A stretch of DNA of 64,000 bases. Origin: Syntrophobacterales bacterium (GTDB lineage: Bacteria > Desulfobacterota > Desulfobaccia > Desulfobaccales > 0-14-0-80-60-11). The stretch lies in contig JAGVAH010000117.1 in NCBI GenBank assembly GCA_020060385.1, forward strand, positions 1 to 64,000. Reading direction: 5' to 3'. Below are positions 18,160 to 30,523 of this stretch, one piece after another (positions within the stretch are counted from its first letter, which is position 1; every line of letters starts with the position of its first letter). Position numbers and translations under genes: made by a program. The notes beneath the pieces were generated by a model, which was not told the origin of the DNA, ran no database searches, and worked only from the letters and a program-made list of their open reading frames with translations.

Positions 18160-18184
18160 TGCCGGGTGCAAAATGCACCTGGCA
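18160..18184. other. Strong hairpin in leader of EBP2
   Basis: TGCCGGGTGC-AAAAT-GCACCTGGCA. Confidence 0.5.
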
Positions 18185-18255
18185 GCAATGGTTCAAGATT
18201 AGCTGCCAGAGCCACTCTGCCCTCAGGTCAGTTGCCGGGAAGAATCTTTTTAATT

Positions 18256-19719
18256 ATGCAGCGCGGTGGGGTCTTGAGAAGAGTTATGCCGGAAGAGTCA
18301 AAAAGAGTTTCCCCAGCAAAGCCGAAATCTGGACGCCGCCCGCGGCCCGAGCCCGGTCTTCCTGTGGCCCCGGCCAACACCCCGCCCCCCAACGCCATCA
18401 TTCTGGATAGCATGGCCGACGGGGTTTTCACCGTGGACCTGGAGCAGCGCATTACTTTCTTCAACCGGGCGGCCCAGGAAATCACCGGGGTGCCTCGGGA
18501 GGCAGCCCTGGGCCGTCCCTGCTCCGAGGTGTTTCGGACCAGCTTTTGTGGCCCGGCCTGCGCCTTGCGGCACACCTTGGAGACAGGCCAGCCGGTGGCC
18601 AACCGGCCCACGGAAATTAGCAGGGCCGATGGCCAACGGATCCTCATCGGCGTCAGCACCGCCCCCCTGAAGGACGGGGAGGGCCGCATCATCGGCGGGG
18701 TGGAGACCTTCCGGGACCTGCGCCCGGCCCCTGAACTGCGGGGCCCCGCCTTCAATCAGAACCGGCTGGGGGGCCTCATTTCCAAATCGCCCCTGATGCA
18801 GAAGATATTCGAACGCCTGCCGGCCATCGCCCGGGCCGGCAGCACCGTCTTGATCCAGGGGGAAAGCGGCACCGGCAAAGAGGTGGTGGCCCGGGCCTTG
18901 CATATCTTGAGCCCCCGCTCCCCAGGCCCTTTTGTGGTGGCCAATTGCGGGGCGTTGCCTGACGCCTTGCTGGAATCCGAGCTCTTCGGCCACGTTGCCG
19001 GCGCGTTTGCGGATGCCCCCCGGGAACGCCGGGGACGCTTCGCCCTGGCCGCGGGCGGCACCTTATTTCTCAACGAAATCGGCGAGATTTCCCCGGCCCT
19101 GCAGGTGCGGCTGCTCCGGGTCCTGGAAGAGCACGCCTACACCCCCTTGGGGGCGCCCCGGGGCCTCAAAGCCGACGTGCGCCTGGTGACTTCCGCCTCT
19201 CAGGACTTAGGGCGGCTGGTGGAGGCCGGGGCCTTCCGCAGGGACCTCTATTACCGCCTCAGCGTCATCAAATTAAGGATGCCGAACCTGGCCGAACGCC
19301 GGGAAGACATCACTTTTCTGGCCCAACACTTCATCGCCAGCTTCAATAAACGGCAGAACAAGAGGATTGAAGGGCTGAGCGGCGACACCCTGGCCATTTT
19401 CCTGGGCCACGACTGGCCCGGCAATGTCCGGGAACTGGAAAGCGCCATCGAGCGGGCCTTCATCGTCTGCTCCCAAGGCCTGATCCTGCCCCGGCATCTG
19501 CCGGACCACTTCCACCCCCAAAATTCCACGGTCTCCAGCCGCGCCCCGGGGTTGAGTTTGAAGGAGCAGGAAAAGCGCCTCCTCCGGGAGGCTCTGGAGC
19601 GCCACCAGTGGCGCCGCCTGGCCACGGCCCGGGAGCTGGGGATTGACAAGAACACCCTGCGCCGCAAGATGGAACGTTTCGGCCTGAAGCCGCCGGGTCA
19701 AGGGGAGCCGGCAAGTTAA
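18256..19719 (+). CDS. PAS-domain sigma-54-regulator paralogue (EBP2) with degenerate AAA+ motifs
   Basis: Walker A GESGTGKE intact; GAFADA, Walker B LFLNEIGEIS, sensor-I region LVTSASQDL; HTH nearly identical to EBP1. Confidence 0.9.
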   Translation: MQRGGVLRRVMPEESKRVSPAKPKSGRRPRPEPGLPVAPANTPPPNAIILDSMADGVFTVDLEQRITFFNRAAQEITGVPREAALGRPCSEVFRTSFCGPACALRHTLETGQPVANRPTEISRADGQRILIGVSTAPLKDGEGRIIGGVETFRDLRPAPELRGPAFNQNRLGGLISKSPLMQKIFERLPAIARAGSTVLIQGESGTGKEVVARALHILSPRSPGPFVVANCGALPDALLESELFGHVAGAFADAPRERRGRFALAAGGTLFLNEIGEISPALQVRLLRVLEEHAYTPLGAPRGLKADVRLVTSASQDLGRLVEAGAFRRDLYYRLSVIKLRMPNLAERREDITFLAQHFIASFNKRQNKRIEGLSGDTLAIFLGHDWPGNVRELESAIERAFIVCSQGLILPRHLPDHFHPQNSTVSSRAPGLSLKEQEKRLLREALERHQWRRLATARELGIDKNTLRRKMERFGLKPPGQGEPAS

Positions 19720-20331: not shown

Positions 20332-23300
20332 ATGGAAAGCCAACAGCCAAAGATCGGCGCGGTAATGGTAGTGGGCGGCGGCATCGCCGGGATGCAGGCC
20401 AGCCTGGACGCAGCCGCGGCCGGCTACAAAGTCTATCTGGTGGAACGGGACATCTCCATCGGCGGGGTCATGGCCCAACTGGACAAGACCTTCCCCACCA
20501 ACGATTGTTCCACCTGTCTCATCTCCCCCAAACTCATCGAGGTGGCCCGGCATCCGGATATCGAGATCCTGACCCAGGCCGAAATCGAGAAACTGGAAGG
20601 GGAAGCAGGCCGCTTCTCCGTCACTCTCAAACGGGAGCCCCGCTATATCGACGCTTCCCGGTGCAATGCCTGCGGCGCCTGCGCCGAGGCCTGCCCGGTC
20701 TCCCTGGCCTCCAGCTTCGATGAAGGGCTGGGGCAGCGGCCCGCGGCCTACCGCCATTTTCCCCAGGCCGTGCCCTCCACCTTTGCCATCAAGAAATTCG
20801 ACCGGGCCCCCTGCGTCCGGGCCTGTCCGGCCAACTTGAGCGCCCAGGGCTACGTGCAGCTCATCAAGGCCGGCAAGTATGAAGAATCCTTAAAAATCAT
20901 CATGGAGCGACTGCCTCTGCCCGGCACCATCGGCCGCATCTGCCCCCATCCCTGCGAGACCGACTGCCGCCGCCGGGAGGTGGACGAGCCGGTGGCTATC
21001 TGCAGTCTGAAACGCTTCGCCGCGGACCAGGCGGATTGGGGCAGTCTGCCGGTGCCGGAGATTCCTCAGAAAAACCAGAGCGTGGCCATCATCGGCGCCG
21101 GGCCCGCGGGTTTGAGCTGCGCCTACCACCTGGCCCTGCAAGGCTATCCGGTGGTCATCTTCGAGGCCGCGCCCGCGGCCGGGGGCTGGCTGCGCTACGG
21201 CATCCCGGCATACCGCCTGCCCCGGGAGATTCTGCAACGGGAAGTGGATTATCTTAAGCGCCTGGGGGTGGAGATCCGTTATCAGACGCCCATCGGCCCG
21301 GGCCGCACCATCAACGACCTCCTCACCCGGGACGGGTTCGCCGCGGTCTTCCTCGGCGTAGGCGCCCAGGACTCGGTGCGCCTGCCGGTCCCGGGCACAG
21401 ATGCCCGGGGCGTCCTCTGGGGGGTGGAATACCTCCGGGAGGTCAATTCCGGGGGCGCGGCCGACCTCCAAGGCCGGAGGGTGGTGGTGGTGGGCGGCGG
21501 CAATGTGGCCATGGACGTGGCCCGGGTGGCCCGGCGCCAGGGGGCCGCAGAGGTGACCATGGTCGCCCTGGAATCCCCCGAGGAATTGCCCGCCTCCCCC
21601 TGGGAAGTGGAGGAGGCCAAGGTGGAAGGGATCCGTATCCTCCACCGTTGGGGCGTCAAACAGATTCTGGCCCCGGCAGGAAAGGTCACCGGCATCGAAC
21701 TCCAGGCCGTGGAGAGGGTCTTTGACGCGACGGGCCGCTTTTCCCCCACATACTTTGAAAATCAAACCACCAGCCGGGAGGCCGACGTGGTCATCCTGGC
21801 GGTGGGCCAGAAGACCAATCTTAAGTTCATCGAGCCCGGGGACGGCATCCAGCTCAGCCCCCGGGGCCTCATTGAGGCGGACCCGGAGACCCTGGCCACC
21901 TCCCGGGAGGGCGTCTTTGCCGGGGGCGACGTGGTCACCGGACCCTGGATCGCCATCGGCGCGGTGGCCGCGGGGCGGGAGGCTGCCCTCTCCATCGACC
22001 GCTATCTCCAGGGGTTGGACCTCAAGGCGGACCGGGAGCCCCCCCTGCGACCCATCAAAGACGGGGAATGGTCGCCCATTCCGGACCAGCTACCCAAGGC
22101 GGGCCGGGCGAAGATGCCGGAGCTCCCCCGGGAGGAATGGGGGCAGAATTTTCAGGAACTCAACCTGGGCTTCACCGCGGATCAAGCCCGGGCCGAGGCG
22201 GAGCGCTGCCTCAATTGCGGGGGCTGCTCCGAATGCCTCCAGTGTGTGGAGGCCTGCCAGGCCGGGGCCATCGACCACCACCAGGCGCCGCGGACTGAAA
22301 CCCTGGAGGTGGGGGCCCTGATCCTGGCCCCGGGCTTCAGGACCTTTGACGCCCGCACCAAGGGGGAATACGGCTACGGCCGCTACCCCAACGTCATTAC
22401 CTCCCTGGAGTTTGAGCGGCTCCTTTCGGCCACCGGCCCCTGCGCCGGCCATGTGCAGCGCCCCAGCGACGGCCGGGACCCCAAAAAGATCGCCTGGATC
22501 CAGTGCGTCGGCTCCCGGGACGCGTCCGTGGGCCGGGAATATTGCTCTTACGTCTGCTGCATGTACGCGGCCAAGCAGGCCATCATCGCCAAGGAACACG
22601 ACCCCGGGGTGGAGCCCGCCATCTTTTTCATCGACTTTAGGGCCCAGGGCAAGGGTTTCGACCGTTATTACGAGCGGGCCCGGGACGTCCACGGGGTGCG
22701 CCTCGTCCGGGCCATGATTTCCCGGGTGACCCAAAATCCCAGTACCCAGAACCTGGAGTTGACTTTCGTCGACGCCGACAACCGGGTGCAGACGGAAGAG
22801 TTCGATATGGTGGTGCTCTCCGTGGGTCTGAATCCCCATCCCGCCACCAAAAAACTGGCGGAGGTCTGTGACATCGCCACCGACAAGTGGGGGTTTGTGG
22901 CCAGCCCCCCCTTGAAAATGGTGGAGACCAGCCGGGAAGGCATCCTCACCTGCGGCGTCTTCCAGGCACCCAAGGACATTCCGGAAACCGTGGGCCAGGC
23001 CTCCGCGACCGCGGGCGCGGCCGCCATGCTCCTGGCCGAGGCCCGGGGCACTTTGCTCTCCAAGGCCGAATATCCCCCGGAACGGGACATAACTCAGGAA
23101 GAGCCCCGCATCGGCGTCTTCGTCTGCCATTGCGGCATCAACATCGCCGGGGTGGTGGACGTGGCCCGGGTAAGCGACTATGCCCGGACGCTGCCGGGCG
23201 TGGTCTATGCCGACCACTTGACCTTCACCTGCGCCACCGACTCCCTGGAGAAGATGCGCCAGGTGATCGAGGAGCAGGGCCTCAACCGGGTGGTGGTGGC

Positions 23301-24798
23301 CTCCTGCAGCCCCCGGACCCACGAGCCCCTCTTCCAGGACAATCTGCGCAAGGCCGGCCTCAACAAGTACCTCTTTGAAATGGCCAACATCCGGGACCAG
23401 GACTCCTGGGTGCACCAGGGCAAACACGAGTTGTCCACAGCCAAGGCTCAGGAGTTGGTGAAGATGGCGGTGGCCCGGGCGGCCGTCCTGGAGCCCTTGT
23501 CCGAGTTGCCCTTCAAGGTAAACCAACGGGCTCTGGTGCTGGGTGGCGACCTGGCGGGCTTAGCGGCGGCCCTGACCCTTGCCAACGCTGGCTACGGGGT
23601 CTATCTCCCGGATATTCAGGAACGCTTCGGCGGCAGCCTGGCCCATAAGAAGTATTACACCCTGGAGGGCCATGCTATCCAGCCTTTTATGCAGGAATTA
23701 GTGACCCAGGCAGAGATGCATCCTAAAATCCGCTGGTGGCCTGAAGCCCGGATTACCAGTTTCTCCGGGCACGTGGGGAAATTCCGGTGCGACCTGGAGT
23801 CTCCCCGGGGCAAATGGTCGGTGCAATTCGGGGCCGTGGTCATCGCCACCGGCGCCAGGGAATACCGGCCCTGGGAATATCTCTATGGAGAACACCCCAG
23901 GGTTCTCACCCAGTTGGAGTTGGAAAACCGACTGGTGGACCAACCCGAGAGCCTGGGCGAGGCTCCTACCGTGGTAATGATCCAATGCGTGGGCTCCAGG
24001 GAGCCGGAGCATCCCTACTGCAGCCGGGTCTGTTGCGGCGAAGCCATCAAGAACGCCATCAAAATCAAGGAACTCCGCCCCCAGGCCCAGGTATTCATAC
24101 TTTACCGGGACATCCGCACTTACGGCCTGAAAGAGATTTATTATAAAAAGGCCCGGGACCTGGGGGTGCGCTTTATCCGTTTTGAGCCGGAGGCCCAGCC
24201 GGAAGTGGCGGCCCCGGGCGAGGGCCTGGAAATTACCGTCTTGGACCAGAACCTCAAGAGCCCCATCAAGATAGCCGCCGACTACCTGGCCCTGTCCGCG
24301 GCCATCCGGCCCCATCCGGCCTCCCAGGAGATTGCCAGATTGTTCAAGCTCCCCCCGGACGCGGACGGCTTTTTCATGGAGGCCCACTTAAAATTAAGAC
24401 CCCTGGATTTCGCCTCTGCCGGGCTTTTCCTCTGCGGCTTGGCCCACGGCCCCAAGTTTCTGGATGAAAGCATCGCCCAGGCCCAGGGGGCCGCGGCCCG
24501 GGCCATGGGCATCCTGGCCCAGAAGGAGATGTTCGTGGGGGGCGCGGTGGCCCGGGTCGATCCCCGCAAGTGCGCCATCTGCCTCACCTGCATGCGCACC
24601 TGCCCCTATGGGGTGCCCCACGTGGACCAGGGGGAAGGGGTCGTCAATATCGACCCCGCAGCCTGCCAGGGCTGCGGCAACTGCGCCAGCGCCTGTCCCC
24701 GGAAGGCCATCGAAGTGATGCACCACCGGGATAAGCAGTTTGTGGCCAAGATCAGCGCCCTGGAAGTGGAGGAGGTCGAGGATCAGGCGGCCAGTTAA
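20332..24798 (+). CDS. HdrA-like multi-domain oxidoreductase with inserted GltD/NfnB-like NAD(P)H-binding domain and C-terminal 2x[4Fe-4S] ferredoxin
   Basis: HdrA N-terminus (VVGGGIAGMQASLDAAAAGYKVYLVERD…NDCSTCLISPKL), GltD-type region (CVRACPANLSAQGYVQLIKAGKYEESLKII…GAGPAGLSCAYHLALQGYPVVIFE), further HdrA segments, C-terminal CX2CX2CX3C pairs. Confidence 0.92.
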   Translation: MESQQPKIGAVMVVGGGIAGMQASLDAAAAGYKVYLVERDISIGGVMAQLDKTFPTNDCSTCLISPKLIEVARHPDIEILTQAEIEKLEGEAGRFSVTLKREPRYIDASRCNACGACAEACPVSLASSFDEGLGQRPAAYRHFPQAVPSTFAIKKFDRAPCVRACPANLSAQGYVQLIKAGKYEESLKIIMERLPLPGTIGRICPHPCETDCRRREVDEPVAICSLKRFAADQADWGSLPVPEIPQKNQSVAIIGAGPAGLSCAYHLALQGYPVVIFEAAPAAGGWLRYGIPAYRLPREILQREVDYLKRLGVEIRYQTPIGPGRTINDLLTRDGFAAVFLGVGAQDSVRLPVPGTDARGVLWGVEYLREVNSGGAADLQGRRVVVVGGGNVAMDVARVARRQGAAEVTMVALESPEELPASPWEVEEAKVEGIRILHRWGVKQILAPAGKVTGIELQAVERVFDATGRFSPTYFENQTTSREADVVILAVGQKTNLKFIEPGDGIQLSPRGLIEADPETLATSREGVFAGGDVVTGPWIAIGAVAAGREAALSIDRYLQGLDLKADREPPLRPIKDGEWSPIPDQLPKAGRAKMPELPREEWGQNFQELNLGFTADQARAEAERCLNCGGCSECLQCVEACQAGAIDHHQAPRTETLEVGALILAPGFRTFDARTKGEYGYGRYPNVITSLEFERLLSATGPCAGHVQRPSDGRDPKKIAWIQCVGSRDASVGREYCSYVCCMYAAKQAIIAKEHDPGVEPAIFFIDFRAQGKGFDRYYERARDVHGVRLVRAMISRVTQNPSTQNLELTFVDADNRVQTEEFDMVVLSVGLNPHPATKKLAEVCDIATDKWGFVASPPLKMVETSREGILTCGVFQAPKDIPETVGQASATAGAAAMLLAEARGTLLSKAEYPPERDITQEEPRIGVFVCHCGINIAGVVDVARVSDYARTLPGVVYADHLTFTCATDSLEKMRQVIEEQGLNRVVVASCSPRTHEPLFQDNLRKAGLNKYLFEMANIRDQDSWVHQGKHELSTAKAQELVKMAVARAAVLEPLSELPFKVNQRALVLGGDLAGLAAALTLANAGYGVYLPDIQERFGGSLAHKKYYTLEGHAIQPFMQELVTQAEMHPKIRWWPEARITSFSGHVGKFRCDLESPRGKWSVQFGAVVIATGAREYRPWEYLYGEHPRVLTQLELENRLVDQPESLGEAPTVVMIQCVGSREPEHPYCSRVCCGEAIKNAIKIKELRPQAQVFILYRDIRTYGLKEIYYKKARDLGVRFIRFEPEAQPEVAAPGEGLEITVLDQNLKSPIKIAADYLALSAAIRPHPASQEIARLFKLPPDADGFFMEAHLKLRPLDFASAGLFLCGLAHGPKFLDESIAQAQGAAARAMGILAQKEMFVGGAVARVDPRKCAICLTCMRTCPYGVPHVDQGEGVVNIDPAACQGCGNCASACPRKAIEVMHHRDKQFVAKISALEVEEVEDQAAS

Positions 24799-24860
24799 TT
24801 ATCTGTCAGCTATCAGCGGTCATTGATCAGTGAACGGCTTATAACTTGTTCTTGTAACTA

Positions 24861-24998
24861 GATACCTTTGCGGAAGTCTTTTAGTTTGTCATTCTGAACG
24901 GAGCGTAGCGGAGTGAAGAATCTAGGCATGCCCAGCGCTAGATTCTTCGGTCGCTCCGCTCCCTCAGAATGACAAGAAAAGGGATTTTCGCAAACTTC
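24861..24998. repeat. MITE-like element family 2, copy A (about 138 bp)
   Basis: gtcattctgaacggagcgtagcggagtgaagaatct … agattcttcggtcgctccgctccctcagaatgac with related outer arms. Confidence 0.7.
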
Positions 24999-25033
24999 AA
25001 CTTGGAACCTGGAACTCATAGGAAAAATTTACC

Positions 25034-25492
25034 ATGGAGTTTCAACCTAAAATCCTGGCCCTGGTGTGCACCTATTGCACTTACACCGCCGCGGATATGG
25101 CCGGTTCGGCCCGGATGCAGTATCCCGCCACCGTGCGCATCGTCAAATATCTGTGCACCGGCCGGATTGACCTCATCCACATCCTCAAAGCCTTTGAAGC
25201 CGGGGCCGACGCGGTCATGGTCAGCGGCTGCGAAGCGGGCAGCTGCCATTTCCTGGAAGGTAACCTCCGGGCCCGGGAGCGGGTGGAATACGCCCAGAAA
25301 TTACTGGCAGAGGTGGGCCTGGGGGGCCGTCTGGAGATGTTTGAGGTGGCAGCCTCCGACGCCCCCAAATGGGTGGCTGCAGTCAAGGAAATGACCCAGC
25401 GGGTGGAGGCCCTGGGACCCAGCCCCCTGCGCCGGGGCAGGCATCTCCATCCCGAAGTGGTGGAACAATTGGAGAATATGGTGCAATCATGA
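25034..25492 (+). CDS. mvhD: MvhD-type iron-sulfur subunit (HdrA-associated)
   Basis: ALVCTYCTYTAADMAG…VSGCEAGSCHFLEGN typical of MvhD/FlpD. Confidence 0.88.
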   Translation: MEFQPKILALVCTYCTYTAADMAGSARMQYPATVRIVKYLCTGRIDLIHILKAFEAGADAVMVSGCEAGSCHFLEGNLRARERVEYAQKLLAEVGLGGRLEMFEVAASDAPKWVAAVKEMTQRVEALGPSPLRRGRHLHPEVVEQLENMVQS

Positions 25493-26169
25493 TCATTGCC
25501 GAACGGAAGCCCTTTGCCGAAATCAAGGCCATGGTGGCTCCTTACAAGAAGATCCTCATCATCGGCTGCGGCACTTGCGTGGCCGTGTGCCTGGCCGGGG
25601 GTGAAAAAGAGGTGGGGCTCCTGGCCTCCCAGTTGAAACTGGCCCTGGGGCTGGAAGACAAGCGCCTGGAAATCGGGGAAATCACGGTGGAGCGCCAGTG
25701 CGACCTGGAATTCCTGCGGCCCTTGTGTGATTTCACCGCGGACTACGAGGCCATCATCTCCATGGCCTGCGGCGCCGGGGTGCAGTATCTCAAGCAACTA
25801 TGCTACCTGCAGCCCATTTTCCCCGGCGTCAACACCAGCTTCATCGGCGTCAACAACGAACCGGGCTACTACACCGAGCGCTGCCGGGCCTGCAATCACT
25901 GCTATCTGGGGCTCACCGGCGGCATCTGCCCGGTGACCATGTGCCCCAAGGGCCTGCTCAACGGCCCCTGCGGCGGCACCATCCAGGGCCGCTGCGAGGC
26001 TGACCCGGAGAAGGAGTGCGCCTGGAGCAAAATCTACCACCGCCTGGAACTGGAGGGGAGTCTGGACAAAATGCGGCGGATCATGCCTTTGCACCCCCAC
26101 GACCGGAGCACCACCCCGGGAACGGTAATCCACCCTGCCTTTAAGAGGAGATACGGCGCCCATGAGTAA
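25489..26169 (+). CDS. metV: Methylenetetrahydrofolate reductase C-terminal-domain protein (MetV)
   Basis: GCGTCVAVCLAGGEKE and CRACNHCYLGLTGGICPVTMCPKGLLNGPCGG; starts in ATGA overlap with mvhD. Confidence 0.88.
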   Translation: MIIAERKPFAEIKAMVAPYKKILIIGCGTCVAVCLAGGEKEVGLLASQLKLALGLEDKRLEIGEITVERQCDLEFLRPLCDFTADYEAIISMACGAGVQYLKQLCYLQPIFPGVNTSFIGVNNEPGYYTERCRACNHCYLGLTGGICPVTMCPKGLLNGPCGGTIQGRCEADPEKECAWSKIYHRLELEGSLDKMRRIMPLHPHDRSTTPGTVIHPAFKRRYGAHE

Positions 26170-27058
26170 GCTCCAGAAGACGTTGGCAGGCGGCGCCTTC
26201 ACGGTGGTGGTGGAACTTAAGCCCCCCAAGGGCACCCAAGTGGCGGAGATGCTGGCGCCAGTGGGCGCGCTGCAAGACCGGGTGGCCGCGTTCGCGCTGC
26301 CGGACAACGAACACGCCCGCATGCGCCTGGCCCCCTGGGCCGCGGCCCGTCTGGTCAAAGACGCGGGCGCCGAACCCCTGGTCAACCTCACCTGCCGGGA
26401 CCGCAACCGCCTGGCCCTGGAAAGCGATCTATTGGGGGCCGCGGCCCTGGGTCTGGAAAACCTCCTGCTGGTGAGCGGCGACTATGTCACCCTGGGGGAC
26501 CACCCCCAGGCCAAACCGGTGTATGACGCCGACTCGGTGCAGCTCCTGCAAATCGTCCAGGGGTTAATGGCGGGGCAGGACAGCGCCGGTAACCCCTTAA
26601 AGGGCAACCCCGTGTTTTTCCCGGGCGCGGTGGTCATCCCGGAGGCCGACCCCCTGGCGCCCCAGCTCCTCAAATTCGACAAGAAGGTGGCGGCCGGGGC
26701 CCAGTTTTTTGTCACCCCTCCCGTCTTTGACCTGGAGAGATTCCGCCAGTTTAAGGAGCATATGCCCTCCCACCCGGTCAAACTTTTGGCCGGCATCAAG
26801 GTCCTGGGCGCGGATGAGGTGGCCCAGGCGGCTGCGGGCCAGTGGCGCAAGGTCTATTCCCTGCCCCCGGACCTGCTGGCCGAGTTATCGGGGAAGGAAG
26901 CCGAGGAAGTCCTGGCCCTGGGCGCGGCCCAAGCCGGCCGTTTATTGAAACAGATCAAGGATGAAAAGCTGGCGGACGGCGTCTATCTCAAGGCCAAAGG
27001 CCGGACGGACTTGATGATGCGAGTCCTGGAAGCAGCAGGTTTGCAACACAAGGGGTGA
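26162..27058 (+). CDS. metF: Methylenetetrahydrofolate reductase
   Basis: MTHFR-like TIM barrel (FTVVVELKPPKG…LLLVSGDYVTLGDHPQAKPVYDADSVQLL); overlaps metV. Confidence 0.9.
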   Translation: MSKLQKTLAGGAFTVVVELKPPKGTQVAEMLAPVGALQDRVAAFALPDNEHARMRLAPWAAARLVKDAGAEPLVNLTCRDRNRLALESDLLGAAALGLENLLLVSGDYVTLGDHPQAKPVYDADSVQLLQIVQGLMAGQDSAGNPLKGNPVFFPGAVVIPEADPLAPQLLKFDKKVAAGAQFFVTPPVFDLERFRQFKEHMPSHPVKLLAGIKVLGADEVAQAAAGQWRKVYSLPPDLLAELSGKEAEEVLALGAAQAGRLLKQIKDEKLADGVYLKAKGRTDLMMRVLEAAGLQHKG

Positions 27059-27170
27059 AAAGGGGAAAAGGTTAAGAGGGGAAAAGGGGAAACGCATCCA
27101 GAGTCTTTTTTTTTTCTTTCCCTTTCCCCCCCCTGATCGAATTAGCCAAGAGGTCGATTTAAGAACAAGG

Positions 27171-28430
27171 ATGAATAACCAAACCAGATACCCCGTAGTC
27201 GTCCTCGGCGGCGGCATCGCCGGGATTGCGGCTGCTTTGGAGCTGACCCGCCTGGGTCATGAGGTGGCCCTGGTGGAAAAGACCCCCTTTTTCGGGGGCC
27301 GGGCGGCCCACCTGTGCTGCAAGGCCACCGATGTCTGCCAGAAATGCGGCGCCTGCCTGGTGCAGGAGCGCCTCAAGGCCCTGTTCCAGGAGCCCCGCAT
27401 CAGCCTTTACCCCCAGACCGAATTGCTGGAGAGTTCCCGGCAGAACGGCCTTTTCCACCTGCGCCTGCAGCAGCAGCCCCTGGTGATCAACCCGGAGCGC
27501 TGCGTGGACTGCGGCCTCTGCCAGGAGGAATGTCCCGCGGCCACCCAGGGGGCCATCATAACCACCAGCGTCACCCAGAATCACCCCCGGTACGCGGTGG
27601 ACCCCGCAGCCTGCCTCTATTTTCAGGACGGCTCCTGCCGGGTCTGCCAGCAGATCTGTCCCCCCACGGCCCGGGCCATCGATCTGGAGCAGCCGGAGAA
27701 AACCATGGATCTGGCGGCAGAGGCGGTTATCGTGGCTACGGGCTACCGCCCCGGGGACCCGGCCTGCCGGTCCCATTACGGCTACGGCCGGCACCCCCAG
27801 ATTCTCAGCGGGGTGGAACTGGAAGAGCGCCTCAAAAACGGCACCGGGCTGGTGGGGCCTGACAGGGAGCCGCCCCGGCGGGTGGCCTTCATCCAGTGCG
27901 TGGGCAGCCGGGACCTGCAACATCCTTATTGCTCCCAGGTCTGCTGCGGCTATACCCTGCGGCTGGCCCGTCTTCTGAAGCACCGGCAGCCGGAGGCGGA
28001 GATCACCACCTTCTATATGGACCTGCAAAACACCGGCCGGGACGCCCCCCGGCTGCAAGCCGAGGCCCACCGGGAAATCAAGGTGGTCCGGGCCTTGCCG
28101 GGGGACCTGCGGGCCGCGGCCGACGGCAGTTTGCGCCTCCGTTATCTCCACGAGGAAAACGCGGCCGCGGTGGAGGCCGCCTTCGACCTGGTGGTCTTAT
28201 CCGTGGGCATCGGCCCGGGCGCGGATAACGCCGCCTTGGCGGCCCTGCTCCAGGTGGAGCTGACTCCCGACGGCTTTTTTCAGACCTCCGGCCGGCAACA
28301 GTACACCGAAACCTCTCAACCGGGCCTCTTCCTGGCCGGCACCGCCTCAGGCCCCCGGGACATCGCCGGGTGCATCACCCAGGCCCTGGCCGCGGCCCGC
28401 CAGGCGAGCCAATACGTGCAAAAATCATGA
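27171..28430 (+). CDS. hdrA: HdrA-like FAD-dependent oxidoreductase
   Basis: VVVLGGGIAGIAAALELTRLGHEVALVEKTPFFGGRAAHLCCKATDVCQKCGACLV, 4Fe-4S motifs. Confidence 0.9.
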   Translation: MNNQTRYPVVVLGGGIAGIAAALELTRLGHEVALVEKTPFFGGRAAHLCCKATDVCQKCGACLVQERLKALFQEPRISLYPQTELLESSRQNGLFHLRLQQQPLVINPERCVDCGLCQEECPAATQGAIITTSVTQNHPRYAVDPAACLYFQDGSCRVCQQICPPTARAIDLEQPEKTMDLAAEAVIVATGYRPGDPACRSHYGYGRHPQILSGVELEERLKNGTGLVGPDREPPRRVAFIQCVGSRDLQHPYCSQVCCGYTLRLARLLKHRQPEAEITTFYMDLQNTGRDAPRLQAEAHREIKVVRALPGDLRAAADGSLRLRYLHEENAAAVEAAFDLVVLSVGIGPGADNAALAALLQVELTPDGFFQTSGRQQYTETSQPGLFLAGTASGPRDIAGCITQALAAARQASQYVQKS

Positions 28431-30460
28431 GCATCGCCCGCGATCTGGATATCATTCTGGCCCACGGTCCGGAACTCTCCGCCGGCGGCCTGGACTATTA
28501 TAAACTGGGCCTCTGGGCCGCAGGCCTGCCCAAAAGCCGCATCCTGGCCTTGAACCCCGGCCTTCCCGCCGAGGAATTGGCCCAGCGGTTGCAGGCTTTC
28601 CTCTACCGTGGCTCGGAACACCGGGTGCTTCTGGCTGCCCTGGACCCCCGGCTACGGGCCCGGCAGATTATCCGCCTGCTCCTGGAGGAGATCCGCATCA
28701 ATCCCGAGTTCCTGGGAGTGCTGGACCTGCAGGAGGCCCTGGGCTATCCCGACCCCCAGGCCTGCAGCCTCAAGGCCCATAACCTCATCAGGCTGGCCGC
28801 GTCCATGCTTACCCGGGCCGAACCCATCGTCACCCGGGAACTGCCGGTGAATTCCCGGGTGCTGGTGTGGGGGGATTCCTTTGCCGCCTTGAAAGCCGCG
28901 GTGGACCTGGTTAATCAGGGATATCCGGTTTTGCAGGCCTTTCCCGGGCCTGCCTTTAAGCCCCTGATTCCCGGCGCCCCCCTCACCCAGCCGCCGGGAG
29001 AGGAACTGCTCCAGCTCACCTCCCAGGCCCAGTCCCACCCCGCCGTCCAGTTGGCCCCCCAGGCCCGGATTATAGAGGTCCAGGGGAGTGCCGGGAACTT
29101 TCAGGTGAAGCTGGAGACGGACCAGGAGGTCCGGGTAGAGACGGTGGGAGCCATGATCCTGGCGCCGGAAATGCATCTGCAGCCGGGGGAGGCCGCGGCC
29201 AGCCTCTCCCCCCACCCCCGGGTCCTGACCCAGACCAGGCTGGAGGAAATCCTGGCTGCCCCGGAGGAGGCCAAGGACCTCTTGGGCCCAGGGGCCCCCT
29301 CCCTGCAGGTGGCCTTCCTGGGGGCCGACTCCCACCCCCTGGCCCTGCGCCGGGCCCTGGACGCGGCCAAGAAATTCTTGGCCCGGGACGATTGCCGGGT
29401 GCTCCTCTTGACCCGGGACGCCAAAGTGGGAGTCCCGGAGTTGGAGGGGGAACTGGAGGAGGCCGCGTCCTCCGGCCTCATCGTCGTCAAACTGCCGGGG
29501 CTCCCGGCCCTCTCCCTGGAGGGCGACCGGCCCCGCTTTACCTTTTTTGATCCGGTGATGCACCAGGAAGAGAGCCTGGCTTGCGATCTGGTAATCCTGG
29601 ATGAGGTTTACGCCCCCGCAGCCGGCAACGCCGCCCAGGCCGAACTTCTGGGCCTCTTTCCCGGCCCCCGGGGATTCTTCCAGGTGGACAACGTCCGCCA
29701 CCTGCCGGTGATCACCAACCGCCGGGGCATCTGCGTGGCGGGCCCGGCCCGGGGCGTCATGGGGCTGGATCAGGCCCTGGCCGAAGCTGACGCCGCAGTC
29801 TCGGCAGTGCACCAGCTCCTTGGCCGGGGCCGGGCCGAGGCCCCCCAGGGCCGGGCGGTCATCGACCGGGGGCGCTGCGTTCTGTGCCTCACCTGCCACC
29901 GCCTCTGCCCCCACGGCGCGGTGAGCTGGGACAACCGGGCCATCATCAACGAATTGGCCTGCCAGGGGTGCGGCGTCTGCGCCTCCCAGTGCCCCAACGA
30001 GGCCATCCAGATCCGCAACTTCACCGACGATCAGGTGGTGGCGGCCATGGAGACCCTGGACCCCCGCCTCACCCCCAAAATCGTGGCTTTTTTATGCCAG
30101 AACTCCGCCTGGGAAGCCTATCACGGGGCTTTAAAGATGCAACAAATCGTCCTGCCCCTGGGCTTTACTCCCTTAAGGATGCCCTGCGCCGGCAAGATCG
30201 ACATCGATTACCTGCTCAAGGCCTTTACCTACGGGGCCGATGGCGTCTTGGTGCTGGGCTGCCACTCCGACAACTGCAAGTCCCAGATGGGCAATGAGCA
30301 CGCCCTGTGGCGGGTGGAGAGGGCCCGGACGATGCTGGAGGAGGCCGGGGTCGATCCCCGGCGGTTGGTCTTCAGGACTCTGGCCGCCAACGCCCCCCGG
30401 GACTTCCTGGCCGCGGTGCATCATCTGGCCGGCCTGCTGCAAGAGGTGAAGGCGGCTTAA
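28427..30460 (+). CDS. Degenerate HdrA-like half + 2x[4Fe-4S] ferredoxin + MvhD fusion
   Basis: CVLCLTCHRLCPHGAV / CQGCGVCASQCPNEAI, then MvhD-like IVAFLCQNSAWEAY…GCHSDNCKSQMGN. Confidence 0.85.
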   Translation: MSIARDLDIILAHGPELSAGGLDYYKLGLWAAGLPKSRILALNPGLPAEELAQRLQAFLYRGSEHRVLLAALDPRLRARQIIRLLLEEIRINPEFLGVLDLQEALGYPDPQACSLKAHNLIRLAASMLTRAEPIVTRELPVNSRVLVWGDSFAALKAAVDLVNQGYPVLQAFPGPAFKPLIPGAPLTQPPGEELLQLTSQAQSHPAVQLAPQARIIEVQGSAGNFQVKLETDQEVRVETVGAMILAPEMHLQPGEAAASLSPHPRVLTQTRLEEILAAPEEAKDLLGPGAPSLQVAFLGADSHPLALRRALDAAKKFLARDDCRVLLLTRDAKVGVPELEGELEEAASSGLIVVKLPGLPALSLEGDRPRFTFFDPVMHQEESLACDLVILDEVYAPAAGNAAQAELLGLFPGPRGFFQVDNVRHLPVITNRRGICVAGPARGVMGLDQALAEADAAVSAVHQLLGRGRAEAPQGRAVIDRGRCVLCLTCHRLCPHGAVSWDNRAIINELACQGCGVCASQCPNEAIQIRNFTDDQVVAAMETLDPRLTPKIVAFLCQNSAWEAYHGALKMQQIVLPLGFTPLRMPCAGKIDIDYLLKAFTYGADGVLVLGCHSDNCKSQMGNEHALWRVERARTMLEEAGVDPRRLVFRTLAANAPRDFLAAVHHLAGLLQEVKAA

Positions 30461-30468
30461 CAGGGGCT

Positions 30469-30523
30469 GTCATTCTGAACGGAGCGCAGCGGAGTGAAGA
30501 ATCTCGTTTTTTGTGATTCTTCT
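30469..30523. repeat. MITE-like element family 2, copy B (partial)
   Basis: gtcattctgaacggagcgcagcggagtgaagaatct. Confidence 0.7.

Follow-up and report, generated by a model that had tools for sequence, protein, structure and literature searches.

How does a MetV–MetF pair exchange its electrons when the genes around it encode two HdrA-type systems and neither HdrB nor HdrC? This question is raised by a six-gene cluster at positions 20332–30460 of a 64,000-nt stretch of DNA (the window; contig JAGVAH010000117.1, here C67, of the Syntrophobacterales bacterium assembly GCA_020060385.1, Desulfobacterota, order Desulfobaccales). The cluster is a real and conserved operon, so far incompletely described, and a variant of the Hdr-type (type IV) methylenetetrahydrofolate reductase (MTHFR). 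Its HdrA with an embedded GltD domain and its lack of HdrBC are mostly known or explained, and the more interesting parts are the core containing its last two genes, termed A′ and B′, the selenoprotein HdrD and the drift of its MetF. With about even credence, we read the operon as encoding a soluble MetVF redox complex in a sulfate reducer that oxidises acetyl-CoA, in which a bifurcating HdrA would be linked to NADH and A′/B′ would form a relay to HdrD. The cluster comprises the following features:

20332–24798, + strand: HdrA with GltD insert, 1488 aa (Pfam/NCBIfam; PDB HdrA, E 4e-183; GltD/Nfn homologues in the PDB)
20800–22014, + strand: GltD/NfnL-like domain within HdrA ([4Fe-4S] Cys motifs; FAD and NAD motifs starting at residues 253 and 387)
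24885–24980, no strand: palindromic repeat between hdrA and mvhD (RNA hairpin of -55.7 kcal/mol, z -9.9)
25034–25492, + strand: MvhD, 152 aa (Pfam FlpD, E 5.2e-44; all five FlpD-family Cys kept)
25489–26169, + strand: MetV, 226 aa (Pfam PF12225 (MetV_C), E 3.1e-33; Cys columns)
26162–27058, + strand: MetF of a divergent clade, 298 aa (Pfam MTHFR, E 8.5e-20)
27171–28430, + strand: A′, short HdrA-type FAD/Fe-S protein, 419 aa (PDB HdrA, E 2e-64)
28427–30460, + strand: B′, degenerate HdrA with 2x[4Fe-4S] ferredoxin and MvhD domain, 677 aa from ATG (FlpD/MvhD, E 1e-28)

All six co-directional open reading frames listed in an earlier note on this DNA were verified at their coordinates and strand, with domains backed by Pfam, NCBIfam and PDB comparison, and archaeal HdrA provided the best solved homologues. 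The stated overlaps, ATGA at 25489 and at 28427 and 8 nt between metV and metF, were likewise verified, as was the absence of HdrB/HdrC from the contig, on which no CCG (HdrB) domain is present. A single transcript over the six genes appears likely despite spacers of 235 nt, holding the strong palindromic repeat, between hdrA-GltD and mvhD and of 112 nt between metF and A′.

When 84,980 species genomes were searched using an alignment of B′ (677 aa), 80 loci were retrieved on B′ similarity alone; the titles of nearly all of them name Desulfobacterota groups or “Deltaproteobacteria”. A′ lies directly ahead of B′ in 67 of 67 loci, and among those with a sufficiently long upstream contig 59/59 have metV, 58/59 have metF and 58/59 show the complete metV-metF-A′-B′ order. 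A′ and B′ are no peculiarity of the window; they belong to a core widely conserved in Desulfobacterota. Upstream of metV, HdrA is encoded in 11/50 and MvhD in 10/50 loci, and the core therefore consists of metV-metF-A′-B′, HdrA-GltD and MvhD representing either a lineage-specific addition or a form which may have been lost elsewhere. The six-gene order itself recurs in both families of the Desulfobaccales, as far as contigs reach, and is, being found again in relatives, far from chance.

A′ retains the Glu of the bifurcating HdrA site, its Lys being exchanged for Arg in all seven sequences compared. In B′, the adjacent four-Cys cluster of HdrA is lost and the Lys is lost in nearly all sequences (L140 has a Lys aligned there), two ferredoxin clusters and the four MvhD cysteines are retained, and the FAD glycine motif is lost in the window lineage and kept in distant B′ sequences. 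Because of the Lys to Arg exchange in A′ and the lost cluster and Lys in B′, the two proteins look like a non-bifurcating relay. The structure predicted for B′ by AlphaFold (mean predicted local distance difference test score 78) can be aligned with full-length archaeal HdrA along 658 columns (E 2.7e-30, template modelling score ~0.56), and in a tree of HdrA cores A′ forms a single clade (17/17 sequences, support 100/100). In part of the order, B′ orthologs (L077:11136–14102; L081:4604–7522, minus strand; L076:3532–6531) are longer by ca. 300 residues at the C-terminus, where Pfam (E 1e-10 to 1e-18) recognises a GcvH-like domain and a molybdopterin-dinucleotide-binding domain of the formate dehydrogenase C-terminal type, the lipoyl-lysine position not being conserved as judged by eye.

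Directly after B′, an HdrC–HdrB fusion (HdrD) is encoded in 29 of the 70 loci with downstream room. Each of the 29 genes is interrupted by a single in-frame stop codon, which is TGA in every case and invariably embedded in xxE-TGA-GH; the codon is read as selenocysteine (Sec) because one position and one codon are shared across divergent genomes. No Rfam element was found at gathering scores near the Sec codons of four loci. Within the Desulfobaccales, HdrD is part of the operon in three genomes, G401 (same genus as the window), G354 and G214, in the last of which Sec-HdrD and the six genes form a single run, and it is unlinked in most of the order. The window genome carries a tRNA-Sec gene, 13 CCG matches on contigs other than C67 and an unlinked HdrD ortholog on contig C134, which is cut by the contig start, has the same TGA and is 90% identical to the G401 operon copy. 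The suggestion of the earlier note that the second HdrA and the MvhD fusion replace HdrBC finds no support, in view of the HdrD genes following in relatives, including the same-genus genome, and of the unlinked ortholog; it appears likelier that the HdrBC function is supplied from elsewhere, and HdrD may be shared. The C134 locus (L063) also encodes a 1083-aa HdrA, NuoE/F-like proteins, MvhD (a match likewise with in-frame TGA) and a likely NiFe-hydrogenase set beside Sec-HdrD, a tRNA-Sec match being located at the other contig end.

The 1488-aa HdrA is built up of an N-module (residues ~1–152 and 619–915), a GltD-like insert (157–561) and a C-module (~916–1488) with a C-terminal 2x[4Fe-4S] unit. 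The fusion, first regarded as a novelty, is not one: HdrA of the Moorella thermoacetica MetVF-HdrCBA-MvhD complex (1487 aa) has the same insert (PMC9430772), and HdrL of Desulfobacterium autotrophicum HRM2, followed by mvhD, was named an HdrA/glutamate-synthase fusion in 2009 (PMC2702500). The window protein shares with HdrL the GltD domain inserted in HdrA and the adjacent mvhD, whereas the description of HdrL in that report mentions no metVF with it. E356 and K409 of archaeal HdrA mark the bifurcating flavin (PMC9430772), and this E/K pair is kept in both modules of the window protein, as in Moorella. Entry of NAD(P)H via the embedded GltD domain, as proposed earlier, still appears to be the most plausible route; in type IV MTHFR the NADH site was assigned to HdrA and the methylene-tetrahydrofolate (THF) site to MetF by subunit expression (PMC8760232). 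The NAD motif of the window domain reads VGGGNVAMD...VTMVALES without the NADPH-type YRR, which in the solved relatives GltD, NfnL and DPD follows the second Rossmann strand at the place of VALES. Arg residues at this position usually serve the 2′-phosphate of NADPH. Since the window protein lacks this Arg pair, NADH is the likelier substrate. The pair is also absent from its close orthologs, YRRS being found in the protein of the genome's own contig C18 and in L083/L148, L088, L090 and L170.

MetV shows the same 13 Cys columns as canonical MetVs. In MTHFR, Asp120 and Gln183 (E. coli numbering) anchor the pterin and Glu28 is essential for catalysis (PMC9900621); the window MetF keeps Glu and Asp, and the Gln is replaced by Pro. 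This Gln is absent from all Desulfobaccales operon MetFs and from nearly all MetFs of HdrA-MvhD-type operons, with the exceptions of L104 (Glu lost, Gln kept), L153 and L166 (both kept), and the catalytic Glu is lost as well in L082/L148 and L101/L102/L164. All three residues are kept in 100% of the operon MetFs outside the Desulfobaccales that have no HdrA upstream. In the tree, the MetFs of HdrA-MvhD-type operons constitute separate deep clades, whose long branches leave their exact placement unsure; the window clade is confined to operons with HdrA-MvhD or close kin, and its members are 62–83% identical within the lineage, with a conserved flavin region. Judged from this flavin region and the MetV cysteines, the operon is under selection, but its reaction may differ from methylene-THF reduction. 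The loss of the pterin-binding Gln in this clade casts doubt on plain MTHFR catalysis, and MTHFR activity of the window MetF is thus uncertain. Of the NAD(P)H-dependent MTHFR originally suggested, the parts that stand are an Hdr-linked MetVF electron-transfer operon and the plausible NAD(P)H entry at the GltD domain of HdrA.

The type IV enzymes of Moorella thermoacetica and Sporomusa ovata (PMC9430772, PMC8760232) likewise combine MetV, MetF, MvhD and a giant HdrA-GltD, and the window cluster shares with them the adjacent metV and metF, the HdrA and MvhD genes and the E/K pair. It differs in lacking HdrB and HdrC (an HdrC–HdrB fusion being located on C134), in the extra A′/B′, in the Pro at the pterin Gln and in the NAD site without Arg pair. 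In Thermacetogenium phaeum, according to the account of its metFV region (PMC6895022), only hdrA accompanies metFV with hdrBC elsewhere, as in the window genome, and methyl-THF oxidation is proposed to proceed towards quinone; in contrast, its HdrBC sit with a formate dehydrogenase and that account describes no A′/B′ genes. HdrA-type genes beside metF, with bifurcation proposed, are also found in syntrophic sulfate-reducing Desulfobacterota (Seep-SRB1g and others; PMC10553843). The relevant section of that report names these neighbourhoods metF-HdrABC only and does not discuss the fusion, selenocysteine or MetF divergence; they are probably part of the same operon family.

On C24 the window genome has a sat-aprBA-qmoABC locus (sat and apr identified from the sequence), and it also carries carbon monoxide dehydrogenase/acetyl-CoA synthase; the organism is therefore a sulfate reducer with a Wood-Ljungdahl pathway. 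For such an organism we propose a scenario in which NADH would bind to the GltD domain of HdrA, and the HdrA flavins with the E/K pair would distribute electrons among NAD(H), ferredoxin and a branch of higher potential by bifurcation, or by confurcation if the pathway runs oxidatively. From MvhD, electrons would reach MetV and the MetF flavin, and A′/B′ would act as a non-bifurcating Fe-S/flavin relay to or from HdrD, the presumed partner, whose gene adjoins B′ in many relatives and is unlinked (C134) in the window genome. The methylene/methyl-THF couple lies near -200 mV compared to -320 mV for NAD (PMC8760232) and is thus too positive for direct NAD reduction, so that using NAD to oxidise methyl-THF would require confurcation involving reduced ferredoxin. 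The E/K-bearing HdrA-GltD could perform such a confurcation during acetyl-CoA oxidation; alternatively, the electrons might leave through A′/B′ and HdrD. The assembly of these proteins into a physical complex, the electron direction and the link to HdrD are all inferred, and the MetF substrate may no longer be methylene/methyl-THF. Several points weigh against this scenario: the pterin Gln is lost in the operon MetF clade while other, canonical metF genes are present in the same genome; HdrD also occurs in order members without A′/B′, often near hydrogenase/Hdr genes, and is thus not specific to the complex; and the hairpin repeat sits between hdrA and mvhD.

Three other readings have to be weighed against the proposed relay to HdrD. 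A bifurcating MTHFR that depends on NAD(P)H, with HdrBC entirely replaced by the second HdrA and the HdrA-MvhD fusion, would agree with the contig devoid of HdrB/C, with the retained catalytic Glu and Asp equivalents and flavin region of MetF and with the 41 of 70 related loci that have no HdrD directly downstream. We nevertheless consider it unlikely, since HdrD adjoins B′ in other order members and has an ortholog in the window genome, and since B′ has lost its FAD motif and Fe-S ligands without gaining a catalytic site or a CCG domain. Somewhat less improbable, although still doubtful, is that the operon MetF is no longer an MTHFR and that MetVF has become a flavin/Fe-S module for another substrate or a pure relay, the canonical MTHFRs being those on C18 and C5. 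The Gln loss in HdrA-MvhD-type operons, the Glu loss in L082, L148, L101, L102, L104 and L164, the fully canonical residues of the HdrA-less operons outside the order and the separate deep clade all point in this direction, whereas the Glu and Asp of the window MetF, the intact MetV cysteines and the identity within the clade indicate that some conserved function remains.

A′/B′ might also be a duplicated QmoAB, handing electrons to adenylylsulfate reductase or menaquinone. A short HdrA followed by an HdrA-MvhD fusion is indeed the arrangement of QmoABC, A′/B′ are similar in size and order to QmoA (420 aa) and QmoB (722 aa, HdrA-MvhD) on C24, and Gram-positive sulfate reducers pair QmoAB with HdrBC (PMC8982180). 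However, the genome's own QmoA and the N-terminal part of QmoB (QmoB_N) form a clade of their own (100/99) in the tree of HdrA cores, which A′ does not join, the true QmoB keeps the four-Cys cluster and the Lys lost in B′, and neither qmoC nor aprAB is found in the neighbourhood of A′/B′, the canonical set being that on C24. QmoAB ancestry is rejected by tree and residue states, the likeness being one of architecture only, and we regard this reading as very improbable. No relevant paper on Qmo-like genes with MTHFR was found in the open-licence PMC literature.

Beyond the relay to HdrD proposed above, we speculate, with low confidence, that a conserved metV-metF-A′-B′-hdrD(Sec) complex provides the outlet, so far missing, for electrons from methyl-THF oxidation in complete-oxidising sulfate reducers, leading directly to the Sec HdrD and perhaps then to DsrC, and that the Desulfobaccales gained the NADH-bifurcating HdrA-GltD while MetF drifted from folate, resulting in a re-purposed MTHFR-derived redox complex. 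Electron disposal from methyl-THF in these organisms is an unsettled question, as is the physiological partner of MetVF even in acetogens; with its two HdrA-type relays and a selenoprotein HdrD connected to MetVF, a conserved operon of this kind points to specific proteins as candidates for that role. Because MetF has drifted in the HdrA-GltD branch, a “metF” in clusters of this type need not encode an MTHFR.

The spacer between hdrA and mvhD is much shorter in close relatives, so that the 235-nt spacer with its palindrome looks like an insertion. One palindrome arm (TCATTCTGAACGGAGCGnAGCGGAG; window 24889) is found again at 30470, 48875 (minus strand) and 51311, with 0 occurrences expected by chance. 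Upstream of the operon, a co-directional sigma-54-type regulator (window 18166–19719; PAS and AAA motifs read by eye) is a possible regulator; a sigma-54 promoter (-24/-12) before the operon finds no support, as matches do not exceed the chance level (11 versus 9.5 expected).

The window metVF is one of several in its genome, which has four MTHFR-domain and four MetV-domain matches. A second cluster on C18 (L066:8713–16159) has the order metF′-hdrA(GltD)-mvhD-metV-metF without A′/B′, and the MetFs of C18 (core) and C5 show the canonical residues. This paralogous Hdr-MTHFR cluster (own C18, L084–L090) contains two metF genes, of which the upstream one belongs to a deep clade of its own; in the own C18 copy (own_C18_up) AGE is found in place of the canonical TGD (Asp). 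Further tandem HdrA-type arrangements are present on C12 (L071) and C91 (L067), the latter with a 782-aa HdrA-MvhD fusion beside a 565-aa HdrA.

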